Made by a program: the position numbers and the translations under genes
Notes under the pieces: model-generated
The model's input: the letters and a program-made list of their open reading frames with translations, nothing else
What the model was told of the DNA's origin: nothing
The model's database searches: none
Assembly (NCBI GenBank): GCA_003574885.1
Contig: PJFC01000001.1
Span: forward strand, 620,001-684,000
Reading direction: 5' to 3'
Source of the DNA: Geobacter sp.
Lineage (GTDB): Bacteria > Desulfobacterota > Desulfuromonadia > Geobacterales > Geobacteraceae
DNA: 64,000 bases
In this document: positions 1 through 58,076 of the stretch, in pieces
Position numbering within the stretch: the first letter of the stretch is position 1
Layout of the letters: every line of letters begins with the position of its first letter

Positions 1-3000
1 GTCGAGATGTTTCCCAACGTGGAATTTCCGCTGGTTTCGGTGGTTACCACCTTTCCCGGCGCTTCGCCGGAGACGGTGGAGCGGGAGATATCCAAACGGA
101 TCGAGGAATCGGTGAACCAGATTGCCGGGGTGAAGCATGTATTCTCCACTTCCCGTGAAGGGGTTTCCACGGTAACCATCCAGTTCCAGTTGGAGCAGAA
201 GGTGAACGACTGTGCCCAGGAGGTTCGGGCCAAGATCGGTTCCATCCGTGGCATTCTTCCCCAGGGGATCGAGGAGCCGATCATCCAGAAGCTCGACTTC
301 AACGCCGCGCCGGTGGCGTCCCTGGCGGTGCAGTCCAACACCCTCTCACCCCGCGAACTGACGACCCTGGTGGAGAAGCGGATCAAGAAACGGTTCGAGA
401 GTGTGGCAGGGGTAGGCAAGGTGGAGATGGTCGGCGGCCAGAAGCGCGAGATCAACGTGCAGATCGATCCGGTGCGGCTCGATAGCCTGGGGCTCGGCGT
501 CAACGATGTGGTTGACGGTATCCGCTCCGAGAACACCAACACCCCCCTGGGGCGGCTGACCAGGGGGACCTCCGAATACCCGATGCGTATCGAAGGGAAG
601 CCGGACCGGGCCGAGGAGTACCGCCGCATGGCCATTGCCCAGAAGGGGGGGCGTCCCATCCCCCTGGGGGAAGTTGCCGTTGTTGCCGACGGCACTGAGG
701 AGCGGCGTAAGCTGGCGCTGGTCAATGGCCAGCCGGCCATCGGTCTCGACATCTACAAGCAGTCGGGGGGTAACGAGGTAGAGCTGGTGGACACGGTCAA
801 GAAGAACATGGCCAGGGTCCAGAAGGAGCTGCCGCCGGGGGTGACTCTGACCATGGTGCGCGACGGCACCATCATGACCCGCGAGTCCCTGGCCGACGTG
901 AAGGAGACCCTGATCATCGGCGGCATCCTGACGGTGCTCATCGTCTTCTGCTTCATCAACTCCTGGCGTTCCACGGTCATCACCGGCGTGACCCTTCCCA
1001 TTTCCGTCATGTCGTCCTTCATCATCATGAACGCCATGGGGATGACCCTCAATGTCATGACCCTCATGGCGCTGTCACTGGCCATCGGGCTCCTGATCGA
1101 CGACGCCATCGTGGTGAGGGAGAATATCGTCCGCCACCTGGAGATGGGGAAGGACCACATGGAAGCGTCCCGCTTCGGCACCAGCGAGATCGGCCTGGCG
1201 GTCTTCGCCACCTCCATGTCCATCGTTGCCGTCTTCATCCCGGTTGCCTATATGCGGGGCATCGTGGGGCGCTTCTTCTTCCAGTTCGGCATCAGCGTCG
1301 CCTTTGCCGTGCTGGTGTCGCTGTTCGTCTCCTTTACCCTGGACCCGATGCTGTCGTCCCGCTGGCACGATCCGTCCATCAACCTGCAGGGGAAGCGGAT
1401 GGGGCTTGCTCGCTGGCTGGAGCGCTTCAACGACTGGTTCGACCTGACGGCGGACAAGTACCGCCGCGCCATCGGCTGGGCCCTTGACCATCGCAAAACG
1501 GTTATGCTCTCGGCCGCTGCTGCATTCATCGGCGGGATCGTCATCTTCGGCACCCTGGAATCTTCCTTCATGTCCAAGGAGGACAAGGGAGAGTTCCAGA
1601 TATCCTTCAAAACCTCTCCCGACGCGGCACTTGCCGAGACCGAGGATCGACTGAACGCCGTGCTCGCTACCGTCAGGGAGATTCCGGAGATCGACCACAC
1701 CTATGCCACCATCGGTGCCGGCGACAGCGGTACCGTCCGGGACGGCCTGCTCTATGTCAAGCTGAAGGAGCGCCAGGAACGAAAACGGAACCAGTTCGAA
1801 CTGCAACGCGATGTCCGTCGGCGACTCCAGAAAATTGCCGGCATCACCTTCTCCATCGAAGAGGTGGGGCAGATGGGGGGCGCCCGGAAACCGCTCAATG
1901 TGGACTTGAAGGGGGACGACCTGGCGACCCTGAAGCAGCTGGGACAGCGTCTCAAGGAAGAGCTGTACAGGGTGCCGGGGATCGAGGACCTTTCCGTCAC
2001 CCTGGAGCACGACATCCCCGAGTACCGGATGAAGGTGGATCGGGAAAAGGCATTTTCCGCAGGTGTCACCACCAATGACGTGGTGGCCGCGCTCTCCCGC
2101 CTGGTGGGGGGAGAGGCAATCTCGACCTACGAAGACGAGGATGGGGATGCGGTCGACGTGCGGGTGCGGCTGCCCGAGTCCCTGCGTCGCAATCCGGGGC
2201 AGGTCGCCGATCTGAAGATTTCGATGCCGGCCGCCTCCGGCGGAAGCAAGCTGGTGCCGCTGGCAAGCCTTGTCAGTACCCGCGTTGCCACCAGCCCGAC
2301 CGAGATCAACCGCCGCGACCTGGCCCGTCAGGTGACGGTCTCCGCCAACCTTGACAACCTCCCCATCGGCACGGCGGTCAAGCATGTCGAGGCGGCGGCC
2401 AAACGGATCAACATGCCGCCGGGATACAGCATCAGCATGTCGGGCGAGGCTGAAGACATGGCCGAGTCTTTCGGCTACATGGCCGAGTCGCTGCTGCTGG
2501 CGGTCATATTCGTCTATCTGATCCTGGCGGCCCAGTTCGAGTCGTTCTTCGAGCCTCTGGCGATCATGCTGTCGCTCCCCCTCTCCATCGTCGGGATGGC
2601 GGGGATGCTCAAACTGACCGGCGACACGGTGAACATCATGGCGCTGATCGGCCTGATCATGCTGATGGGGCTGGTGACCAAGAACGCCATCCTGCTGGTG
2701 GACTACACCAAAGTACTCAGGCGACGGGACGGCATTCCACGGCGCGAGGCGATCATCCAGGCGGGGCGGACCCGGCTGCGGCCGATCATCATGACCTCCC
2801 TGGCCATGATCTTCGGCATGCTGCCGCTCTTTCTCGGGATCGGCGCCGGCGGCGAAGGGCGCGCCCCCATGGCCCGGGCGGTGGTGGGGGGGCTTCTGAC
2901 CTCGACGCTTTTGACCCTGCTGGTGGTGCCGGTCATGTACACCTACATGGACGACCTGGGGGGGTGGGTGAAGCGGAAGTTCGGGAAGGTGAAGGAGGTC

Positions 3001-3012
3001 CCCCATGCGTAA
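1..3012 (+). CDS. RND-family efflux permease (AcrB/HAE1-like), N-terminus cut by window edge
   Basis: Frame open to base 1; FPNVEFPLVSVVTTFPGASPETVE, GLLIDDAIVVRENI and LMGLVTKNAILLVDY are RND permease motifs. Confidence 0.95.
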   Translation, partial: VEMFPNVEFPLVSVVTTFPGASPETVEREISKRIEESVNQIAGVKHVFSTSREGVSTVTIQFQLEQKVNDCAQEVRAKIGSIRGILPQGIEEPIIQKLDFNAAPVASLAVQSNTLSPRELTTLVEKRIKKRFESVAGVGKVEMVGGQKREINVQIDPVRLDSLGLGVNDVVDGIRSENTNTPLGRLTRGTSEYPMRIEGKPDRAEEYRRMAIAQKGGRPIPLGEVAVVADGTEERRKLALVNGQPAIGLDIYKQSGGNEVELVDTVKKNMARVQKELPPGVTLTMVRDGTIMTRESLADVKETLIIGGILTVLIVFCFINSWRSTVITGVTLPISVMSSFIIMNAMGMTLNVMTLMALSLAIGLLIDDAIVVRENIVRHLEMGKDHMEASRFGTSEIGLAVFATSMSIVAVFIPVAYMRGIVGRFFFQFGISVAFAVLVSLFVSFTLDPMLSSRWHDPSINLQGKRMGLARWLERFNDWFDLTADKYRRAIGWALDHRKTVMLSAAAAFIGGIVIFGTLESSFMSKEDKGEFQISFKTSPDAALAETEDRLNAVLATVREIPEIDHTYATIGAGDSGTVRDGLLYVKLKERQERKRNQFELQRDVRRRLQKIAGITFSIEEVGQMGGARKPLNVDLKGDDLATLKQLGQRLKEELYRVPGIEDLSVTLEHDIPEYRMKVDREKAFSAGVTTNDVVAALSRLVGGEAISTYEDEDGDAVDVRVRLPESLRRNPGQVADLKISMPAASGGSKLVPLASLVSTRVATSPTEINRRDLARQVTVSANLDNLPIGTAVKHVEAAAKRINMPPGYSISMSGEAEDMAESFGYMAESLLLAVIFVYLILAAQFESFFEPLAIMLSLPLSIVGMAGMLKLTGDTVNIMALIGLIMLMGLVTKNAILLVDYTKVLRRRDGIPRREAIIQAGRTRLRPIIMTSLAMIFGMLPLFLGIGAGGEGRAPMARAVVGGLLTSTLLTLLVVPVMYTYMDDLGGWVKRKFGKVKEVPHA

Positions 3013-4438
3013 CAGGACAACCTGCCACAGAGGCACAGAGGGACAGAGGGAAAAATATGCCGGGATGTCCCTGCTTGGCTGCATTGCGAAGGGGAATCAC
3101 ATTCCTTTATCCCTGCCGCTACTCTCTTTCTGCATCTCTGTATCTCTGTGTCTCTGTGGCGGATTTTTTTCAACGGTAAAGGCGGCCGAGGTCCGCACTC
3201 TCACCCTGGATCAGGCACTGGAGATTGCCGCCGCACGCAACCGGGACATCCTCAAGGCGCGGGAGTTCTACAAACAGGTGCAGGGTAAATACATGGAGGA
3301 ACGGTCCGCTGCCCTTCCCCAGATAACTCTTACCGGCCAGCTTTCCCGGCAGCAGAATGACAGCCAGAAGATCCTGACGGGAGGTTTCATTCCCACCCGT
3401 CAGGACACAGGAGGGGCGGAACTGGGCATTTCCCAGGTGGTCTACTCCTGGGGGAAGGTGGGGGCTGCCATCCGCGCCGCCGACATCGGCTTCCGCACTG
3501 CTGACGAGCGTCTGCGCATGGCCCGGCAGGGGACGTACCGGGACGTATCCACCGCTTTCTATGACATACTGCTGGCCAGGGAACTGCACGCCATTTCCCG
3601 GCAGAACCTGGAACAGAAGAGCCGTCATCTGGACGAGGCCCAGCGCAAGTACACGGCCGGCGTTGCCACCGACTATGACATCCTGGCTGCGGAGGTTTCG
3701 GTACAGAACGCCCGTCCCGACCTGATCCGGACCGGAAACCAGCTCCGCTCCACCAAGGACCGGCTCCGTTTCATTCTTGCCCTGGAGGAAGATGTAGACG
3801 TGGTCGGGGCGCTGGAACTGACGCCGGCCGGTCTCCCCTCCTATGAAGAATCCCTGGCGATAGCCCGCAAGCACCGGCCGGAGCTGGAGGAGCTGAGACG
3901 CCGGAAAGAGATCGCCGGCGAGCTCGTGACCATTGCCAATGCCGACGACAAGCCCCGCCTCGACATCAAGGGAGGATACGGCTGGCGACGACTGGCGGCG
4001 GGAGATGCCCGGGGTGACGGCCAGGACTGGAACGTCGGGCTCTATCTTTCGTTCCCCTTTTTTGACGGTCTGAAGACGCGCGGCAAGGTGGCCCAGGCCG
4101 AAAGCGAGCTGCACGCCCTGGAGATCGACGAGGCGAAGCAGGCAGACGCAATCTCCCTGGAGATCCGGGATGCACTCAACCACGTCCGGGAAGCGCAGGA
4201 GATCGTCACCGCCCTTACCGGGACGGTGGAACAGGCGGAGCGTCTTCTCATCATGGCGGAAAAGGGGTATGAGCTGGGGGTGAAGATCCGGCTTGAGGTG
4301 GACGATGCGGAACTGAATCTTAATCAGGCGAAGGGAAATCTGGCCCTCGCCCGGCGGGATTACCTGGCGGCACTCGTCAACCTGAACTGGACGACGGGGG
4401 TCCTTGGCGAAGGGAATGTACCCGCTTCCTCCCCCTGA
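3005..4438 (+). CDS. TolC-family outer membrane efflux protein
   Basis: TLDQALEIAAARNRDI..., coiled-coil OEP repeats; GGAGGT upstream of ATG 3005; start overlaps RND stop. Confidence 0.9.
   Translation: MRNRTTCHRGTEGQREKYAGMSLLGCIAKGNHIPLSLPLLSFCISVSLCLCGGFFSTVKAAEVRTLTLDQALEIAAARNRDILKAREFYKQVQGKYMEERSAALPQITLTGQLSRQQNDSQKILTGGFIPTRQDTGGAELGISQVVYSWGKVGAAIRAADIGFRTADERLRMARQGTYRDVSTAFYDILLARELHAISRQNLEQKSRHLDEAQRKYTAGVATDYDILAAEVSVQNARPDLIRTGNQLRSTKDRLRFILALEEDVDVVGALELTPAGLPSYEESLAIARKHRPELEELRRRKEIAGELVTIANADDKPRLDIKGGYGWRRLAAGDARGDGQDWNVGLYLSFPFFDGLKTRGKVAQAESELHALEIDEAKQADAISLEIRDALNHVREAQEIVTALTGTVEQAERLLIMAEKGYELGVKIRLEVDDAELNLNQAKGNLALARRDYLAALVNLNWTTGVLGEGNVPASSP
3025..3163. repeat. 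Inverted repeat with ~9-bp-periodic CACAGAG arms, inside the 5' end of the tolC-like ORF
   Basis: Left arm CCACAGAGGCACAGAGGGACAGAGGGAAAAA (3025-3055); right arm ctgcatctctgtatctctgtgtctctgtgg (3130-3159) is its imperfect reverse complement. Confidence 0.75.
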
Positions 4439-44727: not shown

Positions 44728-44942
44728 AAGATCTGCTCGACTACAAGTTTCTCATCCCGCTGGTACTCATCCTCGGCTTTGCCCCCTTTTATCCCCAGCC
44801 CCATATCGTGGAAAAGCTCAGAATGCTGTCGACGGGCACGCTGAAAAGGCCGATCGACATATTCGATCTTGTCTGGCACGCCTGGCCCTTTGTGCTTTTG
44901 TTGTACCGGATTTACCGGGACATGGGACGGCAAACGGGATAG
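44724..44942 (+). CDS. Small membrane protein, translationally coupled to the upstream methyltransferase
   Basis: ATGA overlap; two hydrophobic segments; FAPFYPQPHIVEKLRMLSTGTLKRPIDIFDLVWHAWPFVLLL. Confidence 0.6.
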   Translation: MKDLLDYKFLIPLVLILGFAPFYPQPHIVEKLRMLSTGTLKRPIDIFDLVWHAWPFVLLLYRIYRDMGRQTG

Positions 44943-44988
44943 TTTCCCGCTTTTTTTGCAGGCTACAAACATGTTAAGGAGTCCATTC

Positions 44989-46665
44989 ATGAAGATGCAC
45001 ATTGTCGTTATCGGTGCCAATGCCGCAGGGGCGAAGGCCGCTTCCAAGGCAAAGCGGATGAATTCCCATGTGGATGTAACCCTGATCGACCGGGGGAGCT
45101 TCATCTCCTACGGGGCGTGCGGCATCCCCTATTACGTGTCCGACACGGTGGCCGACGTGAAGGAGCTGATGACCACGCCAGTCGGTGTTGTGCGTGATGC
45201 CGCCTTTTTCAACAAGGTGAAGGGGGTGAAGGTCATCACCGGCACGGAGGCAGTGGCTGTCAACCGGGAGGCCGGGACCGTCGAGCTGCTTGAGGCGGCC
45301 ACCTCGAAAAGGTACACCCTTGAGTACGACCGGCTGGTGCTTGCGACGGGGAGCACTCCGTTTCTGCCCCAATTCGACAACTGCGAGCTCGAAGGGATCC
45401 TGACGGTGAAATCCATCGAGGATGCCGAACTGCTCAAGGCCAGTGCCGTTGCGGGGAAACAGGCGTGCATCGTGGGGGCCGGGCTCATCGGGCTGGAAAC
45501 CGCCGAAGCACTCAGGCAGCAGGGGCTTGAGGTGACGGTGATGGAGATGCGTGATCAGGTCCTGCCGGGGGTACTGGATGCCGAGATGGCCGCACTGGTG
45601 GAAAAACACCTCCGGATGAACGGGGTGCGGGTCATGACCTCATGCAAGGTTACCGGTTTTGCCGGTACAGACCGGGTGCAGGGGGTTATTGCCGACAAGG
45701 AGGAGGTAGCCGCCCAGCTCGTCGTGGTTGCGCCCGGCGTGCGGCCGAACACTAAGCTGGCCAAGGAGGCAGGGCTGGAGATTGGTGTCACCGGGGCAAT
45801 TGCGGTCGATTCCCGCATGCAGACCAGCGATCCCCGGATTTTTGCCTGCGGCGATTGCTGCGAGTCCCTCAATCTTGTCACCGGCGGAAAGGTGTACGCT
45901 CCCCTCGGGAGTACGGCAAACAAGCAGGGGAGAGTGGCCGGAATCAATGCGGCAGGTGGGGAGGCCTCCTTCGCGGGGATTCTGGGGACCTCCATCCTCA
46001 AGGTTTTTGCCGTCAATGCCGGCAGGACCGGTTTGACCGAGACCGAGGCCAGGGGGTGCGGATATGAGGTGGAGACCGTCCTCTCCCCGGCCCCCGACAA
46101 GGCCCACTTCTTTCCCGGGGCCAAACCGATTGCGCTGAAGATTGTTGCGGACCGGAAGACCGGCAGGATTCTCGGCCTCCAGGCGGTCGGCGAGGGGGCA
46201 GTGGACAAGCGCCTCGATGCGGCGGCAGCTGCCATAACCTTCAAGGCCACGGCCGACCAGCTCTCCCAACTCGATCTCGCTTATGCCCCCCCCTATTCGG
46301 CTGCCATGGACAATCTTCTCGTCGCCGCCGATATCCTCAAGAACAAGCTTGCCGGCCATGCGCGGGGCATCTCTTCCCGTGAGGTAAAGCGGAAACTCGA
46401 TGAGGGCGACGACTTCATTCTCCTTGATGTCCGTTCTCCCGCCGAACATGCAGAGGTGGGGATCGAGGGAGCGAAACTCATTCCGCTTGGCGCCCTGCGG
46501 GAAAAACTGGACTCCCTCCCCAGGGACAAGGAAATTGTTACCTTCTGCAAGATCAGTCTTCGCGGCTATGAAGCACAGAAAATCCTGGATGGGGCAGGCT
46601 TCGGCAAGACACGCTTCCTGGATGGCGGCATCATGATGTGGCCCTACGAGCTGAGGCGGGGATAA
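44989..46665 (+). CDS. CoA-disulfide reductase-like FAD/NAD(P) oxidoreductase with C-terminal rhodanese domain
   Basis: VVIGANAAGAKAASKAKR, SYGACGIPYYVS active-site Cys, C-terminal DDFILLDVRSPAEHAEVGIEGAKLIPLGAL...VTFCKISLRG. Confidence 0.9.
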   Translation: MKMHIVVIGANAAGAKAASKAKRMNSHVDVTLIDRGSFISYGACGIPYYVSDTVADVKELMTTPVGVVRDAAFFNKVKGVKVITGTEAVAVNREAGTVELLEAATSKRYTLEYDRLVLATGSTPFLPQFDNCELEGILTVKSIEDAELLKASAVAGKQACIVGAGLIGLETAEALRQQGLEVTVMEMRDQVLPGVLDAEMAALVEKHLRMNGVRVMTSCKVTGFAGTDRVQGVIADKEEVAAQLVVVAPGVRPNTKLAKEAGLEIGVTGAIAVDSRMQTSDPRIFACGDCCESLNLVTGGKVYAPLGSTANKQGRVAGINAAGGEASFAGILGTSILKVFAVNAGRTGLTETEARGCGYEVETVLSPAPDKAHFFPGAKPIALKIVADRKTGRILGLQAVGEGAVDKRLDAAAAAITFKATADQLSQLDLAYAPPYSAAMDNLLVAADILKNKLAGHARGISSREVKRKLDEGDDFILLDVRSPAEHAEVGIEGAKLIPLGALREKLDSLPRDKEIVTFCKISLRGYEAQKILDGAGFGKTRFLDGGIMMWPYELRRG

Positions 46666-46720: not shown

Positions 46721-47515
46721 TCAACGCTCAAGAATGCGGAGCAGCTCCGGCAATTTCTCCTCCTCCAGGAGGACAGGTCGCATGGTGGTGCCGGGGCGCA
46801 CCTTGCGCGGATTCTTAAGCCAGGTTTTCAGCCTCTCTTCAGTCCACGCCCGTTTTCCCTCAAAAGTATGCGGATAGAATTCGGAGAAAATACCCGAAAG
46901 ATTCGGTCCCGCATCCCCCGTCCCCAATCCGCCGTACTGTTCCGAAAGCAGCCTGTGGCACGGGCCGCAGTTGGCGGTAAAACTATCCTCCCGTTTCTCC
47001 CCGCTCTCCACGAAATGCACTACCTGCGGCAGTTCTCTCCGTTCCTCACCGGCAGCCCTCCCCCCGGCCATGATTGCATTGACTAGTGCAATTCCCTGTT
47101 GTTCGGTAACATGAAAATCGGGCATGAACACCGCCGGTTTGGTAATTGCCTGCTGTATGGCCTGGGGAGGGGTCGTTGCGTAGAGTCTGTCCAGATTGGA
47201 GGCGCGGCGGCTACCTTTGCCTGAAATCCAGTGACATCGCCGGCAGGCGAACCGGTCGATCAACTGCTTCCCCTCCCGCACCTGGGGGGCATCCCCAAGA
47301 GTGAAGTGGGCCATACTTCCGGGAATCATGTCCCGATGGGCGATGTTCTTCCGGTCGGAACGGTCGTTCCCCCGATGGCATGACGTGCAGTTGCCCCGGT
47401 CGGCATAGTGGACACCATGGCAGGAGATACAGAGGGATGGCCTCTTCCTGGTTCCGGCTTCTGCTCCACCTGCGATGGCCAGGAACAGCATCAGAATGGC
47501 GACACGAAGCTCCAA
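46721..47515 (-). CDS. Tetraheme c-type cytochrome (last gene of ext-like cluster)
   Basis: CISCH, CTSCH, CRRCH, CGPCH; likely TTG start at 47515 (LELRVAILMLFLAIAGGAEA), overlapping the upstream gene. Confidence 0.8.
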   Translation of the reverse strand: MELRVAILMLFLAIAGGAEAGTRKRPSLCISCHGVHYADRGNCTSCHRGNDRSDRKNIAHRDMIPGSMAHFTLGDAPQVREGKQLIDRFACRRCHWISGKGSRRASNLDRLYATTPPQAIQQAITKPAVFMPDFHVTEQQGIALVNAIMAGGRAAGEERRELPQVVHFVESGEKREDSFTANCGPCHRLLSEQYGGLGTGDAGPNLSGIFSEFYPHTFEGKRAWTEERLKTWLKNPRKVRPGTTMRPVLLEEEKLPELLRILER

Positions 47516-47904
47516 TTCTCCCCCCGAAAAAACATGGCGACAATGGTGAGCAGCACAATAATGAAAAAGATGACGAGGGTGAACAAGGAGAGGGGGAGGC
47601 GTTCCCGGGCATACCATCGTGCCCGGTCCGGAACGGGAATGAACCTGAACCATGGCAGGAAGAGAAAGATGAAGGCGATGCCGATTACGCCGTAGATGAG
47701 AATTTTATCGTAACTCACCAGTTCCTGTATCCAGAGAAGAAACCAGGCCGATTTCACCGGATTGGGGACCTTGCCCAGGGATGCCTGTTCCTGGAGCGGG
47801 GCGGGAATGAAGGCAGCCATGGCCATCAGGGCGCAAACGGTCAATGCCAGGGCGATTTTCACCAGCCGGAAAAATGCAGGGGAACTTTTTACATATCCTC
47901 TCAT
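47491..47904 (-). CDS. Cytochrome b C-terminal / subunit IV-like membrane protein
   Basis: KVPNPVKSAWFLLWIQELVSY followed by TM segments; adjacent to cyt b6-like gene. Confidence 0.78.
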   Translation of the reverse strand: MRGYVKSSPAFFRLVKIALALTVCALMAMAAFIPAPLQEQASLGKVPNPVKSAWFLLWIQELVSYDKILIYGVIGIAFIFLFLPWFRFIPVPDRARWYARERLPLSLFTLVIFFIIVLLTIVAMFFRGENWSFVSPF

Positions 47905-48521
47905 AGGTAGGGGAGAACTCCCTTGTTCTTGCGGATATAGTAGAAGTGAAGGAGCGAAAGGAACAGGGTTACCGTCGGAATGACGATGATGTGGAGCGCA
48001 TAGAAGCGGATGAGCGACAAGGTCTCTCCCACACCGTCAGGCACCAGTACGGCTTTCACCAGATGTCCGAGGGGAGCCGTTTCGAGCAGTTTCATGCCGG
48101 TCTGGGTCGCCCAGAGAGCGAGCTGGTCGAGGGGGAGGAGGTAGCCGGTGTAGGCCTCGAATACCGCCAGGCAGAGGAGGGCGAACCCGATGATCCAGTT
48201 GCGCTCCCGGGGCTTTGCATAGGCACCGGTGAGGACGACCCGCAAGGTGTGGAAGAAGATGAGCACCAGGAATCCGTGGGAAGCCAACCGGTGGAGGCTC
48301 CGCACGTAACGTCCGCCGAAAACGGAGGTTTCGAGGAAAAGGATGGAGTCGAACGCCCCCCGCGGTGATGGACGGTAGTAGAAGAGAAGCAGTACTCCGG
48401 TGACGGCAAGCACCATGAAGGAGGTGAAGGCCATCCCGCCGAGACAGAAGGTATAGGTTATCCGAAGGTTCTTTTCAAGAACGACCCGCGGAAAGAGATG
48501 TTTGAAAAAATCCTTGAACAT
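47901..48521 (-). CDS. Cytochrome b6-like subunit
   Basis: RSLHRLASHGFLVLIFFHTLRVVLTGAY...FALLCLAVFEAYTGYLLPLDQLALWATQTG...RFYALHIIVIP (heme-ligating His pairs). Confidence 0.88.
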   Translation of the reverse strand: MFKDFFKHLFPRVVLEKNLRITYTFCLGGMAFTSFMVLAVTGVLLLFYYRPSPRGAFDSILFLETSVFGGRYVRSLHRLASHGFLVLIFFHTLRVVLTGAYAKPRERNWIIGFALLCLAVFEAYTGYLLPLDQLALWATQTGMKLLETAPLGHLVKAVLVPDGVGETLSLIRFYALHIIVIPTVTLFLSLLHFYYIRKNKGVLPYL

Positions 48522-48522
48522 G

Positions 48523-48936
48523 TCAGACGCTCCCTGCCCGGGACCTCCCCGTAACCACCAGATACTCCCCGTCAGATTCAAGAGCCAGTATGGCCAAAGG
48601 CTCCGTGGCCGGCCCGCTTAGCAGCTCACCCTTCCGGTTGAACCTGCTGCCGTGGCAGGGGCAGATCATCCCCGTCGGTGTCACCGATACCGTGCATCCG
48701 AGGTGGGGGCAGACGAGACTCAGGGCGATGATGTCCCCCCCCTCATGGACGAGGGCAATGCGCGATTCCCGGTAGACGAGGGCGCCGTTGGCGGGCAGCT
48801 CGGCTTTCGGCACCCTGAGCAGCGCTTCCCGCCTGGCCTTCCGAGGCACGAGAAATCGCCACATCCCTCCCGCAAGAGCCAGCATTGCTCCTAACGCGAC
48901 GAGGAACTGTCGACGCGATTGACGAGGCTTTTCCAT
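48523..48936 (-). CDS. Rieske [2Fe-2S] protein
   Basis: SRRQFLVALGAMLAL TM/Tat-like N-terminus; CPHLGCTV...CPCHGSRFNRKGE. Confidence 0.93.
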   Translation of the reverse strand: MEKPRQSRRQFLVALGAMLALAGGMWRFLVPRKARREALLRVPKAELPANGALVYRESRIALVHEGGDIIALSLVCPHLGCTVSVTPTGMICPCHGSRFNRKGELLSGPATEPLAILALESDGEYLVVTGRSRAGSV

Positions 48937-50141
48937 TTCTCCACATACCCCTTCGTATAGGCCGGCTTGCGTGCCGCCATCTCCTGATATCTGCCCGCAT
49001 CAAGGAACGAGCCGTTCACCACCCGCTGGCCGGTGCGATCCCAGAAAGAGTCCAGGGACATGCCGTCCTCCCTGAGCCGGTAGATCCGCTCTTCCGGTTT
49101 TTCCAGGAGAAAGCGGCGTCGATTGTCGTGGCAACCGTCGCACATGGGTGCCCCCCGCCTGACGGTGTGGGGGAAAAAGGCACGCCATTCCGCAGCCAGG
49201 AGCCGGTTCTCGACCCCTTCCGGCCGGTCGTTGCACAGATGGGAATAGTAGGCGATGAACTCCGGCCTGACGGGCGAGACCATCCCCCGGCCATTAACCC
49301 CGAGAGGGGGGGCATCCTGCTTCTTCAGGTAGACGCTCTTCACGTACTCACCGTTGTTGTCGCGCAGCCGGTACAGGTTCTGGACCGTGCTGTCGGTGAA
49401 GCGGAGGTAGAAGGTCCCGTATTCCTGGGGTGCCCAGGCGGAGTGGCAGGCGTAGCATTCCATTTTGTCGAGATGGGCTGCGATCCGGTGTTCAAGGACC
49501 TTCCGGCTTGGTTGATGGCACCCGGTGCACTTTTTGGCGGACTTCCGGCCGGCGAGAAAGCTTGCCATGTCGTGGCAGGCGGCGCAGGTGAGCCCCTTTT
49601 CGAAATGGACGTCGGGGAGCATCTTCAGGTACGGCTCACCCTCAATTTCCACACCCCGCTGGTAACGCTCATGTTCCTCCCGTGGGGCCCTGCCTGAATA
49701 CTCGGCGCCGGTGAAGTATCCCTTGTGGCAGGAGAGGCAGGCATTGAGGTCGGGACGCACGATCCGGTGACCGTCGCTGCCGTGGCAGTCGAGGCAGCTC
49801 CTGACGTGACATTCGCCGCAGTTGTTCGTGAAAAACGCCGGGTCATGCCGACCGTAGGTCCGTTGTACGAAGCCCCGTTCCCCACTCAGGGTGGCCATGA
49901 CGTGACCCGCCATTCCCCCGTATCCCCGGTGGCAGCCGGTACACCCTGCGGCGTTATCGACAAACGATGCGGGGTTCGGGGACGGACGCACCTCTTTTCC
50001 ATGGCAGGAGAGGCAGGGGAGCTTTCCGTGCTTCCCTGCGAGGGTGACCCGGTGACAGACCGTGCAGTTTTCAGCCCCCCTGGCGTCAGCGGGACCGGCT
50101 GCCGTCAAGAAGACGGCGATGAAGAGCATCATCAAGCGCAC
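48891..50141 (-). CDS. Decaheme c-type cytochrome
   Basis: 10 CXXCH motifs; ORF open to 50186, best start GTG 50141 behind AAAGGA. Confidence 0.87.
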   Translation of the reverse strand: MRLMMLFIAVFLTAAGPADARGAENCTVCHRVTLAGKHGKLPCLSCHGKEVRPSPNPASFVDNAAGCTGCHRGYGGMAGHVMATLSGERGFVQRTYGRHDPAFFTNNCGECHVRSCLDCHGSDGHRIVRPDLNACLSCHKGYFTGAEYSGRAPREEHERYQRGVEIEGEPYLKMLPDVHFEKGLTCAACHDMASFLAGRKSAKKCTGCHQPSRKVLEHRIAAHLDKMECYACHSAWAPQEYGTFYLRFTDSTVQNLYRLRDNNGEYVKSVYLKKQDAPPLGVNGRGMVSPVRPEFIAYYSHLCNDRPEGVENRLLAAEWRAFFPHTVRRGAPMCDGCHDNRRRFLLEKPEERIYRLREDGMSLDSFWDRTGQRVVNGSFLDAGRYQEMAARKPAYTKGYVEKWKSLVNRVDSSSSR

Positions 50142-51930
50142 GGTAATCGATCCTTTTCCGGTAGATGGGGTCCACAGCCTTTTCATGGCAGATCAGGCAC
50201 TCGTTGAGCGCCAGTGCCCGTTTTACCTCGTTGCCGTTGAGAGGACGGGAGTTTTCACGGGTGATAGCGGAGAAGGCTTTTACCTTTCCTTCCCGCATGG
50301 TGAGGAACCCGTCGAGCGGTTTGTCTGCCGATTTTTCGCAGATAAGGGTTCCCCTGATGGTTCCCCCCTCGACCACATGCTGGCCGAAGCCAAGAAACGC
50401 CGGGTTGCCGTGGCACTCCGAGCAGTCAACCGCCTTTTTGCCGGTATTATGGGAGTAAAAGGGGGCGAAGCGGAGCTGGGGCTTCCCCTTGTACCGGGCA
50501 ACGTATTCGTTCCGCGATAAGGTGCCGTCCGGCTCGACGACGGTAACGAAGGTCTGGCAACCCGGCGTGACGGGGGATATTTTGCCGCGCTGGTTCAGTG
50601 CGAGGGGGAAGGGGTAGAGCATCCGGTAGTCCTCGGTTTCACTGAAGCGCCCAGGTGTCTCCCTTTTCTTGATGAAATCCATACCGTCCAGAGTCTTGTC
50701 GTAGCGGGTATGGCATCCGTAGCACTGGACGACCGTGCGCGAATGGCAGGCATGGCATTCCAGTCGTCTGTGGCCGACAATCGTATGTTCAGGAGTACCG
50801 GTGATCACCTTGCTCCGGAATATCCTGCCGCTCTTCTTGCCGAGGAGCAGGACATTGCCGTCGGCGACAAAAACGTTGGAGTAGGGACGCCCCTTGGCGG
50901 TCAGGATCATTTGCATTCCCGGCCGCATCTGCATTTTGTACCGTTTCGACTCCCTGACCGGTTCTTCGTTTTCCCTCGTGATGACGGCGTAGCCTGGGGG
51001 GGATTTTGCACTGCCGTGGCAGTCCTCGCAGGCGATCTCGGTCTGCAGGTACATGTTTTCGTAAGCGTACCCGTCTCCCATGATATCACGGGACGTGTGG
51101 CAATCGATGCACTCCATCCCGGCAACGTGATGGACGTCGGGTGCGATCTGCACCACATTGCGCCCTCCGCTGATCATGACGGGGCCCGGCTTTCCCCCGC
51201 TGGTGGGGACGAGGCTGTTGTTGCCGTCGTAAAGCCCCTGGTAGGAGAGGGCAATCCTTCCGCTCCGGTTGTGGCAGCGGAAACAGACGTCATTGCCGGG
51301 CAGAGGGGCAAGGGCGTGGCTTGCCGCAGCAGGTCGTTTCCCCCGCATCGTCCGATCGTTCCCTTCGTAAGTCCCCCGGTCATTGTAGGGGAAGTGACAG
51401 GCTGCGCAGCCCGCGGCATGGCTCGCGGCGAAAACATCTCCTGTTTCGTTCCCCACATGGCACTGGGAGCAGAACTTGCGGTACAGCTCTCCCGACAGAT
51501 TGTTCAGTCCCACAACTCCGGCCAGCTGCAAGGGCTCGCCGGCAGCGTCGAACGTTTTGGTCTGCATGGTGGCGAAGAGCCGCGGGTCGTTTCCTTCCCA
51601 TGTGAGCTGGATATTTTTTATCATCCCCGTATTCGTGTGCATCAGGTTCGACTGCACCCGTTCGAGCTGATAGCGGTGACAGGCTCCGCATGACTTTTCC
51701 CACGTTTCGGGAGCCGCGGGGTTCTTCCGGCCGTACATGCCGCGATGGGATGTATCCTTGTCTTTTGTCCGGTCATTACCACCGTGGCAGGATATGCAGG
51801 ATGCATGGCTTTCTGAGGTCTTTTCGATCCCCCGGTGACACGATTCGCAGGTTGACCTCCCCCGGTCGCATCCGGAGAGGAGGAGAAGAAGTATGAAAAG
51901 GCGCACTGCATTGTTGGGTATGATGGTCAT
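50086..51930 (-). CDS. Dodecaheme c-type cytochrome lipoprotein
   Basis: 12 CXXCH motifs; lipobox LLLLSGC. Confidence 0.9.
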   Translation of the reverse strand: MTIIPNNAVRLFILLLLLSGCDRGRSTCESCHRGIEKTSESHASCISCHGGNDRTKDKDTSHRGMYGRKNPAAPETWEKSCGACHRYQLERVQSNLMHTNTGMIKNIQLTWEGNDPRLFATMQTKTFDAAGEPLQLAGVVGLNNLSGELYRKFCSQCHVGNETGDVFAASHAAGCAACHFPYNDRGTYEGNDRTMRGKRPAAASHALAPLPGNDVCFRCHNRSGRIALSYQGLYDGNNSLVPTSGGKPGPVMISGGRNVVQIAPDVHHVAGMECIDCHTSRDIMGDGYAYENMYLQTEIACEDCHGSAKSPPGYAVITRENEEPVRESKRYKMQMRPGMQMILTAKGRPYSNVFVADGNVLLLGKKSGRIFRSKVITGTPEHTIVGHRRLECHACHSRTVVQCYGCHTRYDKTLDGMDFIKKRETPGRFSETEDYRMLYPFPLALNQRGKISPVTPGCQTFVTVVEPDGTLSRNEYVARYKGKPQLRFAPFYSHNTGKKAVDCSECHGNPAFLGFGQHVVEGGTIRGTLICEKSADKPLDGFLTMREGKVKAFSAITRENSRPLNGNEVKRALALNECLICHEKAVDPIYRKRIDYRALDDALHRRLLDGSRSR

Positions 51931-52010: not shown

Positions 52011-52042
52011 GAAAAAAAGACCGGCGGTGGTTTCCGCCGGTC
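52011..52042 (-). terminator. Rho-independent terminator inside the ext-like cluster
   Basis: GACCGGCGG TGGTTT CCGCCGGTC; A7 tract at 52012-52018 gives a U-tract on the minus strand. Confidence 0.85.
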
Positions 52043-52080: not shown

Positions 52081-53433
52081 CTATTTGCCGCTCTTGCTGA
52101 TGCTGACTGTTTTCGTAAACTCGTCCCAGACAAAGGGATCGCTGTTGGGGGTCCCGAACGGCAGGTAGGTGAGTTTGACCTCGATGTCCAGGTCGTATGT
52201 CTGCGGTCTGGTAATAGTTTTGCCGTTTTCCTCGACTTCTTCCAGAGGGTAGAAGATGTCGAAGCGCTCATGGACCGTCTTGCCGGGAGGAAGTCCCATG
52301 TCTTCTATGATGCCGCTCTTTTCGTAGGGGCCGCGCCCCATCCGGTCGCCACGGGCAAGCTGTTGCGGAACCGGCATGTAAATCTTCTCCTGGTTGAACA
52401 CTTCTTTGCCATCTTTGGTTTTTGCAATTACCGACAGAACCAGTCGGTTGGGGGTCGGTCAGCCATCGGGTATGGAGTGGCCGGCACGGTTGATCATTTC
52501 CACCTTTACTACCGCTTTGGGCTTGATCTGTGCTCCATCACGCCAGTAATAACCAAACGCCTCGGTTTTGAAATCCACTGCTGTCTTGCTCATCGTCGGG
52601 TCACGGTAAGACTGGATGTTGTGGCCGAGCTTGCTCTCCTTCATGTGGCAATCCTGGCAGTTCTTCTGGCCAATCTCGGATTTGTAGGACCAGAGATAGC
52701 TGCCGTAGGAAGTGCAGCACTGGGTCGGTTCATCCAGTTCCAGGTTCGGTCCCATGCCGTGGCATTGACCGCACTGGATCGCTTCGCCCATGATGGGGCT
52801 CGCTGCCATTTTGGGAAACTTGTCCGAAGGATGGTCCCCGTCCTTTGAGCCGTAGACAACCCCCGCCTTCGCATAGCCGTCCTGCCACTTGTGGGTTATG
52901 GCATTCCGGTTGTGACAGATAAGGCAGCTGATGTTGACACTCTTGAGTTTTTCCTCCGCCTGCTTTGCTGCGATCTTATCCTTCTTCTTCAGGGCGGCTT
53001 TCCAGTCGTAAAGCGTGGTGACAAGCTCCTGTGCCACCGAATCTTCCGCATCGGCAAGCTGGGGCAGGTGACATTTGGCGCACCCCATAAGATGCTCTAC
53101 CTTGACGTCCTTCGGGCTTTTCACACCGGAATACGGTTCTTCCATGAGACCATTTTCGATGGCGGACATTATGGTCATTGCCGTCCGTCCCGTCCCGTAG
53201 ACGGAGCGTGAGTGTATGGATTTCTGCGCTTCGTCGTGCTTATCCTGGTGGCATTCGATGCAGGAACTGGAGTCGTACATCTTTGCCAGTTCGGCAAGTG
53301 TCTTCGCCTTGCCCGATTTGGCGGCAATGGTTTCCTGCCTGCCTATCCCCACCTTGCCGTCGGCAAAGGCCGTGCCGGCAAACAGGGCAGTGGCTGCAAG
53401 AAGGGCCAGTGCGCCGGTAATGCGTTGTTTCAT
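52081..53433 (-). CDS. extL: Pentaheme c-type cytochrome with in-frame TGA, candidate selenocysteine protein (extL position)
   Basis: ORFs 52459-53451 and 52081-52401 are in the same frame; only TGA at 52459-52461 separates them: ...INRAGHSIPDG(TGA)PTPNRLVLSVIAKTKDGK...; 5 CXXCH. Confidence 0.75.
52430..52448 (-). promoter_or_regulatory. SECIS-like hairpin downstream of the in-frame TGA
   Basis: mRNA ACCGAC UGGUUCU GUCGGU, 6-bp perfect stem, loop with GGU, 16 nt between UGA and apical loop. Confidence 0.65.
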
Positions 53434-53477
53434 CGTGTTCCTCCCATTCATAAATCAGAAGCAGGGTGCTAAGCCTT

Positions 53478-53795
53478 TCAGCATCCCTGAAGTTCGTCAC
53501 CCGCAGCCTCGCTGATGGTAACGGTGCTGTCGGTCTTGATCTTGGCAGCTTTGGCCTTGCCGAATTTCAGCACGACTTCATTACCCTTAACCTCGACTAC
53601 TGTGGGTGCGCCCCCCAGTGCCTCGACGTTGACGCCCTTTTTGACCCAGGCGGGGAGGTCCCTTTCCGTCGTTACCGTCACTTTTTCACCATCGACAGCG
53701 GTCACTTTTCCCTTAACTGCTTCGGCAGCAAAGGCTGCTGTGGCGAAGGCGGCCATGGCGAACAGAACGGCAAGTTTCGTGATTAATCGTTTCAT
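53478..53795 (-). CDS. extK: Small exported protein (extK position)
   Basis: Signal peptide MKRLITKLAVLFAMAAFATAAFAA; KVTAVDGEKVTVTTERDLPAWVKKG; symbol from cluster order only. Confidence 0.6.
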   Translation of the reverse strand: MKRLITKLAVLFAMAAFATAAFAAEAVKGKVTAVDGEKVTVTTERDLPAWVKKGVNVEALGGAPTVVEVKGNEVVLKFGKAKAAKIKTDSTVTISEAAGDELQGC

Positions 53796-53854
53796 TGCAG
53801 ATTCTCCTTTTGTTAGTGGTGTTACCATGGTTGAGAAACCCATGGGTTTCTCGG

Positions 53855-54178
53855 TCATTCTACCGGCGGTGCCCATTCGATGCGGACTTCGGGTTTACCG
53901 TTTCCCTTGGATGTGCCGGTTTTTTTCTGAGGTGTCTTTGCTGCTTCACCGTCAGTTCCCGCGGTGCCAGGCTCTGCGGGGTGGGATGGCGATGGCTCGG
54001 CTGCCGAAGCATTGTTTTCCTGATAGCTGATGCTGGCAATACTGCTGCTTGGTTCGTCGAGACGGATGGTCTGGACGTTGCCGGAGCGGTATTTTATGGT
54101 TATGTTGTCAGCGAAAGCGTTGCCTCCTGACAGGGTAAAGCAGGCAGTCATGAGTAAGAGAGCGCTGCTGGTTTTCAT
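53855..54178 (-). CDS. extJ: Small exported protein (extJ position)
   Basis: Signal peptide MKTSSALLLMTACFTLSGGNAFA; symbol from cluster order only. Confidence 0.6.
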   Translation of the reverse strand: MKTSSALLLMTACFTLSGGNAFADNITIKYRSGNVQTIRLDEPSSSIASISYQENNASAAEPSPSHPAEPGTAGTDGEAAKTPQKKTGTSKGNGKPEVRIEWAPPVE

Positions 54179-54290: not shown

Positions 54291-55496
54291 TCAGAATATC
54301 AGCTGCAACTGGGTGATGAAGGTCGTGAAGTCTTTGCTCTGAAGTCCACCAACGGTTCCCTCGGTATTGAAGTCGGTGCGGGAAAGCTCTGCGGTAAGTT
54401 TAAGGTTCTGACCGCGGAAGTAGTAATTGGCGCCGCCGCCGTACCAGTCAACTTTCTGGTCAAAGATGTTATTGAGGCTGGCGAACCGCCACTTCTCGTA
54501 ACGGCCGAAGAATTGCAGCGGCAGGTTGGGGAGCATGTAGCCTGCCTTGGCATACCAGCCGTTTTTCTGCCCGTTGATGCCGATGGTTCCCGCATCGGGA
54601 CTGGTGCTTTTGTAGGCATCATCCAGGTCAACATCTTCATAGGCAGCAGAAGCGGTAACGGTACCGATTCCTTCAAGGGGATACTCGAAGAAGCCGTCAA
54701 CCGTCCAGGCCTGGTAATCCTTCTTGTCGGTTCTGGTTGCTGTATTGCCATAGGCGACTTCCGGCTCGAACTGATAGGCGCCGCCGATAGTCAGGACTTT
54801 CTTTTTCCCCAGGTAGGTTCCCTTGTAGCCATAGTCGTTCTCGGGGTCGAGGAGTGTAACGTGGCCGCGGAAGGAGTAGCGGAAATTGGAACTGGGAGCG
54901 GTGTCGCCGGAAACGGCCTTGCGCCCTTCCATGGCATCGATGCGGTACTGGAAGATGTCGTTGAACAGATTTCCCCACACCGCTACCCCGGTGTCGCGGG
55001 TGCTGGTATAGGCGGTACGAACGAATAGTGACCGGTCGAGGGTCAGGGGCATCTCGCATGCCTCCAGGTTTTCGCGAGAGAGGTTATACTTGAACTTGCC
55101 GGCGTTCACGTGGAAACTGTCATGGAGCTTGAAGCGCATGACCGCGTCGAGGAGCTGGAATTCCGTTCCCTGGTTGGTGCTGGCGACGCCGAGGGTGGAG
55201 ATGTTCTGGTCCTCGGTGAACTCCGTCTGGACATAAAGACTCAGCATCTCACCGTATTTGCCCATGAAGGCAAGCCGGTTGCGGCGGAAGTTGAAATTGG
55301 TGGTGGTATCGTCGTTGTTGTCTCCTGATCCGGTGTCCCGGACCGTCATCTGGAACTGTCCCTTGTAGTCGATCTGCAGGGCACCTTCGTCGTTCGGGCC
55401 AAAGGTGATCTTCGGCCCGGCGAAGGCTGTGCCGGCAACTAGAAGCAGACTGGCTGCAATTGTTGATATTCTTCCTGCCTTGGTCATCTTTATCAT
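54291..55496 (-). CDS. extI: Porin-like outer membrane beta-barrel protein (ExtI-like)
   Basis: Signal peptide, alternating beta-strand sequence, C-terminal FITQLQLIF; next to the rhodanese lipoprotein. Confidence 0.8.
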   Translation of the reverse strand: MIKMTKAGRISTIAASLLLVAGTAFAGPKITFGPNDEGALQIDYKGQFQMTVRDTGSGDNNDDTTTNFNFRRNRLAFMGKYGEMLSLYVQTEFTEDQNISTLGVASTNQGTEFQLLDAVMRFKLHDSFHVNAGKFKYNLSRENLEACEMPLTLDRSLFVRTAYTSTRDTGVAVWGNLFNDIFQYRIDAMEGRKAVSGDTAPSSNFRYSFRGHVTLLDPENDYGYKGTYLGKKKVLTIGGAYQFEPEVAYGNTATRTDKKDYQAWTVDGFFEYPLEGIGTVTASAAYEDVDLDDAYKSTSPDAGTIGINGQKNGWYAKAGYMLPNLPLQFFGRYEKWRFASLNNIFDQKVDWYGGGANYYFRGQNLKLTAELSRTDFNTEGTVGGLQSKDFTTFITQLQLIF

Positions 55497-55560: not shown

Positions 55561-56928
55561 TCAGCAGCCACCACCGCCACTAGAGGCCCCGCCGCCAGTC
55601 GTACTGCTAACCGCGCTGCGATATGCTTTATCTGCTGTTTCGATCTGGTTCCCTTCGGCGAAACTCGGCTCTACGCCATAAACACGAGCACTATAGTCGA
55701 CTATTGCCAGACCACGGTCAATGTTCCACGTCAGACTGTCCATCAGTGAGGTGGTATCCCAGACGGATCCGACGTGCAGCTTACCGCCGGCATTGCTGCC
55801 GTTGAGGGCGAGGTGGTCGGACGAGGCCATCAGGTTCCACTGGCCTAGCGAGCCGTCGTACCATTTGATATCCACGTTAGAATTGTAATATGCGATACCG
55901 TCTAGGACAAAATATGCTTGAGAAGCGTTATTTCCAGCCCGACACATAGTAATGAAGGTTTTTGCTGAATCACGGTTGGCATCGCCAATGGTACTGGTTG
56001 AGCTAAAGGCTGCACTGATGGCAGCTTTTATCTCGTCAGCAGTTTTGAATGTTACACCGGTTATGACACTGGAGAGAGGGAAACCGTAAGAGCCTTTAAC
56101 ATAACCATCGAAAGGGGTATACACTTTTGGAGATGCTGGAGCAATAAGGTCCTGTGTTGAAAAAACACCAGGGTTTGCAGGACGAACTGTATCAAGAATA
56201 TATACGTTATCAACATTGCCGGCCACTATACCTTTGACATATGCAATCATCTCGCTGAGCGATACACGCATGTCAGTATTTATGTTGGTTGTTCCATTCT
56301 GGGCAACACCATAGGTTGACTTCTGAATGGTTGGTGCATTGGTTGTCAGAGCGTACCCTGCTGCAGTCCACCCAGCATTGCCACCTTGCAGAACCTTGAT
56401 GCGGTTTTTGGGGAATCCCCAGTAGCGGAATGTTGCATATGCTCTGGTCATATCGAGGGCAGATGTGCTGTTGGTTGTCAGCACTACTGTCGTGTTTGCG
56501 TCAATACCAGCTTTCTGTATCAGGGCATCAATCGTGGCACCGCTACAGACCATCTGGCCCGTGGCAGCCAGTGGCCCTTCGGCACGCGTTTCATAGAAAG
56601 TAGCGGGGCCGGCTGAGATCGACTGCGCGCCAGGGATATGACCGACGGTGTCGTAAGCGTTTGAACCGTTAGTTGCATTGGTGGTGGACATATCGAGAAT
56701 GACTACCCGGTCATACCCTCCCGCTTTGTTCACCAGTCCGGCATCTGCCCACTGTTTCAGATCGGCTGCCTGAATCAGGGCGGTTGCGGTTTTTGTCGTT
56801 ACGACCTCAGACGAGGGACTGTCGTATCCGTTCGTGCCGCAGCCAGACAGCCCGATGAGCGTGAGCATGGCGACGCCGAACAGGCCCGCCAAAATGATCC
56901 GCCCTTTTCTCCACACCTGCTGTGTCAT
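55561..56928 (-). CDS. extH: Rhodanese-like lipoprotein with tandem domains (ExtH-like)
   Basis: Lipobox TLIGLSGC; VVILDMST...HIPGAQSI, CRAGNNASQAYFVLDG active loop; C-terminal GGGASSGGGGC. Confidence 0.82.
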   Translation of the reverse strand: MTQQVWRKGRIILAGLFGVAMLTLIGLSGCGTNGYDSPSSEVVTTKTATALIQAADLKQWADAGLVNKAGGYDRVVILDMSTTNATNGSNAYDTVGHIPGAQSISAGPATFYETRAEGPLAATGQMVCSGATIDALIQKAGIDANTTVVLTTNSTSALDMTRAYATFRYWGFPKNRIKVLQGGNAGWTAAGYALTTNAPTIQKSTYGVAQNGTTNINTDMRVSLSEMIAYVKGIVAGNVDNVYILDTVRPANPGVFSTQDLIAPASPKVYTPFDGYVKGSYGFPLSSVITGVTFKTADEIKAAISAAFSSTSTIGDANRDSAKTFITMCRAGNNASQAYFVLDGIAYYNSNVDIKWYDGSLGQWNLMASSDHLALNGSNAGGKLHVGSVWDTTSLMDSLTWNIDRGLAIVDYSARVYGVEPSFAEGNQIETADKAYRSAVSSTTGGGASSGGGGC

Positions 56929-57113: not shown

Positions 57114-58076
57114 ATGTCCGAATCCACAGAGGGTACTCCCATGGACCTTGTACTCTTGAAGACCTTTGTGAAGGTCGCGGCGACCGGCAGTATCACCAAG
57201 GCCGCCGTCGTGCTGTTTGTCACCCAGTCGGCGGTGTCTCGGCGAATCAAGCAGTTGGAAGAGTATGTGGGGAGTCCTCTCTTCGAACGCTCCGGTACGG
57301 CCCTGAAACCGACAAGTGCAGGCTACATGCTGATCGACAGGGCACACAAGATTCTCGAAATCGAGCGGGACATTTTCGCCAATCTTACTCCTCCCCAGAG
57401 CAAGCAAAAGATTTCATGCTGTTGCACTCCATGCCTCGGCATGCACCGCCTTTCCGGATTCCTTAGCTCCTTCGTTACCAGTCATGCAAAAACCATCGAT
57501 CTCAGCTGTGCCTTCACCATGCCGGAGGAGGCGCTTGCCGGCATCGACAGCGGAAAGTTCGATCTTGCCCTCATCGAGCACTGCGACGAACTTGAGCTGA
57601 AAAATTACGTCTGCCGTCATCTTCCTGATGACGAAATGGTCTTTGTCAGCAATCCCTCCCGGGGAATAGACCAGGCCGAAGTGGAGATCGGGCGACTGTT
57701 TGAAGAGCGGCTCTATCTGAAAAACCAGACCGGCTGTGCCAAGCGTTTCATCGATAAGAACCTGCTGGCTCTCGGGCGAACCATCAACGACTTTGCCGGC
57801 GTTGTCTACTTCGATGATCTTCTGTTTGTCATTGGTGAGGTGAGGGCGGGGAACGGGATCAGTTTCGTATCAAAGGAGTTTGTGCAGAGGGAGTTGCACG
57901 CCGGGCAGCTGGTGGCCCACAAGGTTGTGGGGTTTCATCACTTTCGGCCACGCACCATGGTTCTTTCCCGGGAACATCTGTCGCCCCTGGTGGAATCTTT
58001 TGTCGATGCGCTCTGTGACGAATTCCATGTCAGCGGTCCAAGCTGCTCCGGTGAATCTGTAGCCACCGGAACCTGA
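57114..58076 (+). CDS. LysR-family transcriptional regulator
   Basis: MDLVLLKTFVKVAATGSITKAAVVLFVTQSAVSRRIKQLEEYVGSPLFERSG. Confidence 0.95.
   Translation: MSESTEGTPMDLVLLKTFVKVAATGSITKAAVVLFVTQSAVSRRIKQLEEYVGSPLFERSGTALKPTSAGYMLIDRAHKILEIERDIFANLTPPQSKQKISCCCTPCLGMHRLSGFLSSFVTSHAKTIDLSCAFTMPEEALAGIDSGKFDLALIEHCDELELKNYVCRHLPDDEMVFVSNPSRGIDQAEVEIGRLFEERLYLKNQTGCAKRFIDKNLLALGRTINDFAGVVYFDDLLFVIGEVRAGNGISFVSKEFVQRELHAGQLVAHKVVGFHHFRPRTMVLSREHLSPLVESFVDALCDEFHVSGPSCSGESVATGT

Follow-up and report, generated by a model that had tools for sequence, protein, structure and literature searches.

A predicted selenocysteine-containing ExtKL pentaheme cytochrome within the ext cluster of a Geobacter species

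The window considered here is a stretch of 64,000 nucleotides from Geobacter sp. (GenBank assembly GCA_003574885.1, contig PJFC01000001.1, positions 620,001 to 684,000). On its reverse strand a single reading frame, 53451–52081, is broken by one TGA at 52461–52459. Direct translation through this codon gives a product of 456 residues from the ATG at 53451, or of 450 residues from the ATG at 53433; the TGA is codon 331 in the first numbering and residue 325 in the second. The ATG at 53433 fits better as the start because it is preceded, at a distance of 6 nt, by a Shine–Dalgarno-like GGGAGG (53440–53445, reverse strand) and followed by a signal-peptide-like segment, MKQRITGALALLAATALFAGTAFA. 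The read-through product contains five CXXCH motifs (CIECH, CAKCH, CLICH, CGQCH and CQDCH) and terminates at a TAG (52083–52081), 125 codons past the TGA. Just 3′ of the gene, on the same strand, is a hairpin with a T-rich tail that resembles an intrinsic terminator (52019–52042). An earlier note on this DNA had described one TGA between two same-frame ORFs, a protein of about 450 residues with five CXXCH, a normal stop some 125 codons past the TGA, and a gene that standard callers would truncate or take for a pseudogene. Each of these points holds: the reverse strand from 53433 to 52081 is continuous apart from 52461–52459, and standard gene calling does divide it, into the ORFs 52459–53451 and 52081–52401.

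What protein does this frame encode? It matches the NCBIfam equivalog model NF040886, ‘multiheme c-type cytochrome (seleno)protein ExtKL’, at 582.3 bits against a curated cut-off of 250. Its five CXXCH motifs are accompanied by an in-frame TGA placed after GHxxPDG, and the coding sequence (52081–53433) lies inside a complete extHIJKLMNOPQS cluster, all of it on the reverse strand. Upstream are extJ (53478–53876; NF040942), extI, an outer-membrane porin-like protein (54291–55496; NF040900, Pfam Porin_O_P), and extH, a rhodanese-like protein (55561–56928; NF040901). Downstream are the multiheme cytochromes extM (50086–51930; NF040943) and extN (48891–50186; NF040967), the Rieske Fe–S protein extO (48523–48936; assigned by Pfam Rieske and its place in the cluster), the b-type cytochrome extP (47901–48581; Pfam Cytochrome_B, with NF040969 at 218 bits, under its cut-off of 290), the membrane protein extQ (47491–47904; NF040970) and the cytochrome lipoprotein extS (NF040971), whose true start is probably internal to its ORF, 46721–47653.

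The flanks of the cluster and one of its profile models deserve comment. A LysR-type regulator (57114–58076, forward strand) adjoins extH divergently. It matches NF041036, ‘multiheme cytochrome-associated’, at 297 bits against a cut-off of 210, and matches a ‘selenium metabolism-associated’ LysR model below cut-off; it is a candidate regulator of the ext cluster. Beside extS, on the opposite strand, lies a CoA-disulfide-reductase-like flavoprotein (44869–46665) that scores 399 bits, under the equivalog cut-off of 579. The ExtN cytochrome scores 660 bits against NF040968, a model of 416 positions named ExtO, Fe–S subunit, to which the Rieske ExtO of 137 residues gives no match. To judge by these scores, NF040968 looks mislabelled.

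If the TGA of extKL is not a stop, how is it read? The earlier note had proposed selenocysteine (Sec), and the homologues, the machinery of the host and the recurrence of the codon across assemblies all support this. Across 195 genomes searched within the class, all 51 near-full-length homologues (identity at least 56%) carry an in-frame TGA at the codon matching 331. When 395 genomes from the phylum were searched using NF040886, the cut-off was exceeded in 39; most of these copies have one TGA and several have no stop. When the fetched copies are aligned, the TGA of the near family falls at exactly the same column. Distant copies have Cys there (L068 and L069, both Nitrospirota; L122, L125, L126 and the second copy of L123), and two others have Ile (the first copy of L123) or Val (L124). 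Among the aligned homologues of the class and phylum searches, neither TAA nor TAG was seen at the Sec codon. On a tree of 65 rows the Cys label takes three changes, a number that the well-supported branches already impose as a minimum. That TGA and Cys replace each other in several lineages, TAA and TAG being absent, is the classic signature by which selenocysteine is predicted.

The host genome encodes what such a reading would require: a tRNA-Sec (74.7 bits, over the gathering score), selA (617 bits), selB (369 bits, in one frame) and selD (370 bits, with one in-frame TGA). The note had named both the Sec genes and the residue at this site in homologues as points to check, and both checks came out in its favour. 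The selD gene (L019; G000:C1:974792-975715) has its TGA within KAAG-U-AAKLG, which makes SelD, too, a predicted selenoprotein, as has been reported for other Geobacter. Three metagenome-assembled copies of extKL show extra stops. At L104 and L105 this is only the natural gene end nearby, while the copy at L048 has a TAG inside the gene, which probably reflects faulty assembly or a pseudogene.

What might mark this UGA for recoding? The SECIS-like hairpin ACCGAC-UGGUUCU-GUCGGU lies at 52448–52430 on the reverse strand, with the position, spacing and sequence that the note had given it. Its 5′ arm begins 11 nt past the UGA and its loop begins after 16 nt; the apical loop bears the G and U characteristic of the SECIS hairpins that follow UGA in bacterial selenoproteins. 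We examined codon usage in 27 homologues that are less than 90% identical to each other (range 52–90%, median 60%). The codons AAC CGA CTG GTT CTG TCG (residues 335–340) are invariant in 27/27. At residues with four- to six-fold degeneracy, the mean frequency of the commonest codon is 0.93 over residues 332–341 versus 0.58 elsewhere (Mann–Whitney P = 9e-6), and the limits of this frozen stretch coincide with the proposed stem. Among 97 windows, a loop GGU at equal offset occurs in 85 of the 89 Sec copies versus none of the eight non-Sec copies. A GGU-loop hairpin near the site was found in 65/89 Sec copies versus 3.6% of codon-shuffled controls. By the synonymous-codon test and by the homologues, the predicted hairpin is far above chance expectation.

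The form of this putative SECIS is not uniform across the ExtKL family. Four of the 89 Sec copies are without the exact GGU, and the simple criterion applied here detects no hairpin in 24; distant copies have a shorter stem in a shifted register. What we claim is a conserved RNA element, predicted from sequence, and not one proven identical fold; within the near family the sequences vary too little to inform on covariation. In an isolated 50-nt RNA a competing fold (−11.5 kcal/mol) is favoured over the proposed hairpin (−9.1 kcal/mol) because ACCGAC is present twice. When the first 11 nt are omitted (the UGA and 8 nt, which a ribosome would cover), the proposed stem is the minimum-energy fold.

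Is this protein new? The note had left in doubt whether homologues were already described as selenoproteins, and they have been from 2007 onwards. Fujita et al. (2007) listed GSU2937 together with GSU2936 as an unassigned TGA cluster expected to represent a novel selenoprotein family (PMC1914089). Jahan et al. (2018) described the complete ext cluster and named ExtKL a cytochrome c-like selenoprotein candidate linked to selenite reduction, the basis of the link being an extI mutant together with a ‘preliminary study’ of extKL (PMC5877670). In the same year Jimenez Otero et al. pointed out the TGA and the predicted selenocysteine (PMC6148476), and a 2026 review places ExtKL among the prokaryotic selenoprotein families (PMC13188914). 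The main text of the two papers that this review cites for the family is silent on cytochromes; the 2007 paper is therefore the earliest verifiable source. Moreover, five deposited structures (PDB 9wt8, 9wt9, 9wta, 9wtb and 9wtc) are of a ‘multiheme cytochrome c selenoprotein (MccSep)’, a U325A mutant included. In the literature we found no structure paper for MccSep, the name matching only unrelated neuroscience work. These entries are absent from the matches of our fold search, which drew on a library up to 8 April 2026, and so they are probably recent. The Sec-containing ExtKL is thus already known, and the novelty of the claim is nil.

Could extK and extL nevertheless be separate genes, with translation stopping at the TGA and restarting downstream, for example at the GTG at 52401? 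The two ORFs of standard gene calling have that appearance, and in the annotation of G. sulfurreducens the gene appears as GSU2937 and GSU2936, two separate loci (PMC5877670). However, the segment that links the TGA to the GTG (PTPNRLVLSVIAKTKDGKE) shows high conservation, the Cys homologues are each one uninterrupted protein and the deposited MccSep chain spans both halves; a pair of genes is exceedingly improbable. A stop codon in frame would also be left by a pseudogene or by a sequencing error at codon 331. Yet the same TGA, never TAA or TAG, recurs in dozens of independent assemblies and in many families. It is therefore not a sequencing error, and this third check of the note also came out in favour of Sec. 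The chance of either such origin is practically nil, and we reject both as refuted by the homologues.

The UGA might instead be read as another amino acid, Trp or Arg for instance, by a near-cognate tRNA. That one branch tolerates a different residue is evident from its Ile and Val copies. But the usual replacement is Cys and not Trp or Arg, the SECIS-like element is conserved in Sec copies and lost in the others, and the deposited structure is named a selenoprotein, with a mutant named U325A. We consider decoding as any residue other than Sec to be very improbable. The gene is almost certainly a Sec-containing ExtKL, a pentaheme c-type cytochrome, as far as its sequence and those of its relatives can tell. 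The UGA at 52461–52459 would be decoded as Sec by SelB and tRNA-Sec, helped by the hairpin at 52448–52430.

Where would the Sec lie in the protein? In the predicted structure (mean pLDDT 92.9) a helical part for the five hemes extends to about residue 291 and a beta-sandwich follows; these would be the N-terminal and the C-terminal domain of the exported protein. In the 456-residue numbering, the heme-binding His 68, 128, 180, 231 and 269 are invariant in 65 homologues, as are His 80, 277 and 325, Cys245 and Tyr200. Since the invariant candidate distal His are three and the hemes five, at least one heme is without an invariant His ligand. The Sec closes the motif GHxxPDG-U at the start of the beta-sandwich, six residues past an invariant His. 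This His may serve one heme, and the Sec may lie near a heme, where it would take part in electron transfer as a redox residue or a ligand; we offer this mechanism tentatively, as rather less probable than its contrary. Sec331, Cys245 or Tyr200 may lie at the heme that is without an invariant His ligand.

The literature connects the ext cluster with the reduction of selenite and tellurite and with growth of G. sulfurreducens on Fe(III). It follows from this literature that the likeliest role for ExtKL is to reduce oxyanions or to relay electrons.

Genomes G220, G465, G508 and G472 carry, besides a Sec copy, further ExtKL copies in which Cys or Ile occupies the Sec column. At L123 two of them stand in tandem (308–1687 and 1695–3059). 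Other non-Sec copies are at L124 (184–1548; Val), L122 (348–1568; Cys), L125 (343–1572; Cys) and L126 (Cys). The Ile and Val copies retain Cys245 and every heme motif. A different duplication is seen at L121 (G050:C1:508000-526000), where two Sec-containing extKL genes, 86–87% identical to the window gene, are about 5.7 kb apart. Might Sec, Cys245 and Tyr200 together form a site at a heme without an invariant distal His that is catalytic and does more than carry electrons, the tandem Cys, Ile and Val paralogues of some genomes being specialised forms with catalysis changed or lost? We think this unlikely. Our literature search found no description of these tandem paralogues or of an invariant Cys and Tyr possibly sharing the Sec site.

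What, then, is gained? A selenoprotein, to all appearances real, had been split in two by gene callers and was recovered together with its hairpin by a tool-free reading of the raw sequence. Selenocysteine in a multiheme cytochrome is unusual. The tabulated homologues, with their Sec, Cys and Ile/Val forms and their invariant partners, provide a guide for the design of mutants of the solved MccSep. A modest interest is left in the Cys and Ile/Val paralogues and in the role of the Sec.

How does the window protein compare with known systems? Remote multiheme cytochromes of the same phylum (for example L148, L144 and L145) share the motif before the Sec column, in the form GHxxP(T/S)G, but have Ser, Asn, Thr, Leu, Met or others where the Sec would stand. 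These proteins fall far under the cut-off of NF040886 (L148, 46 bits versus 250). Since these cytochromes share the motif without Sec, the Sec seems to have been added to a scaffold that is older. The best fold match of the model is the pentaheme cytochrome c552 of Thermochromatium tepidum (5ze8; TM 0.50–0.58). The profile match (3.7e-20) aligns the motif H-x-x-P-x-G, but 5ze8 is only 15% identical and has Ala at the Sec position (PTGAPFRN). MccSep (9wt8, 9wt9, 9wta, 9wtb and 9wtc) is far closer, with E = 1.5e-231 over window residues 17–456. Aligned with the Sec column are an unknown residue (X) in the Sec form and Ala in the mutant, and the number in U325A is that of the window TGA, residue 325 from the ATG at 53433. 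The two proteins differ by scattered substitutions, and MccSep is an orthologue from another species. With ExtKL of Geobacter sulfurreducens (GSU2937–GSU2936) the window gene shares the cluster, the gene order, the five hemes, the Sec and the match to NF040886. We see no substantive difference between them; the window gene is the orthologue from another species of the Geobacteraceae.
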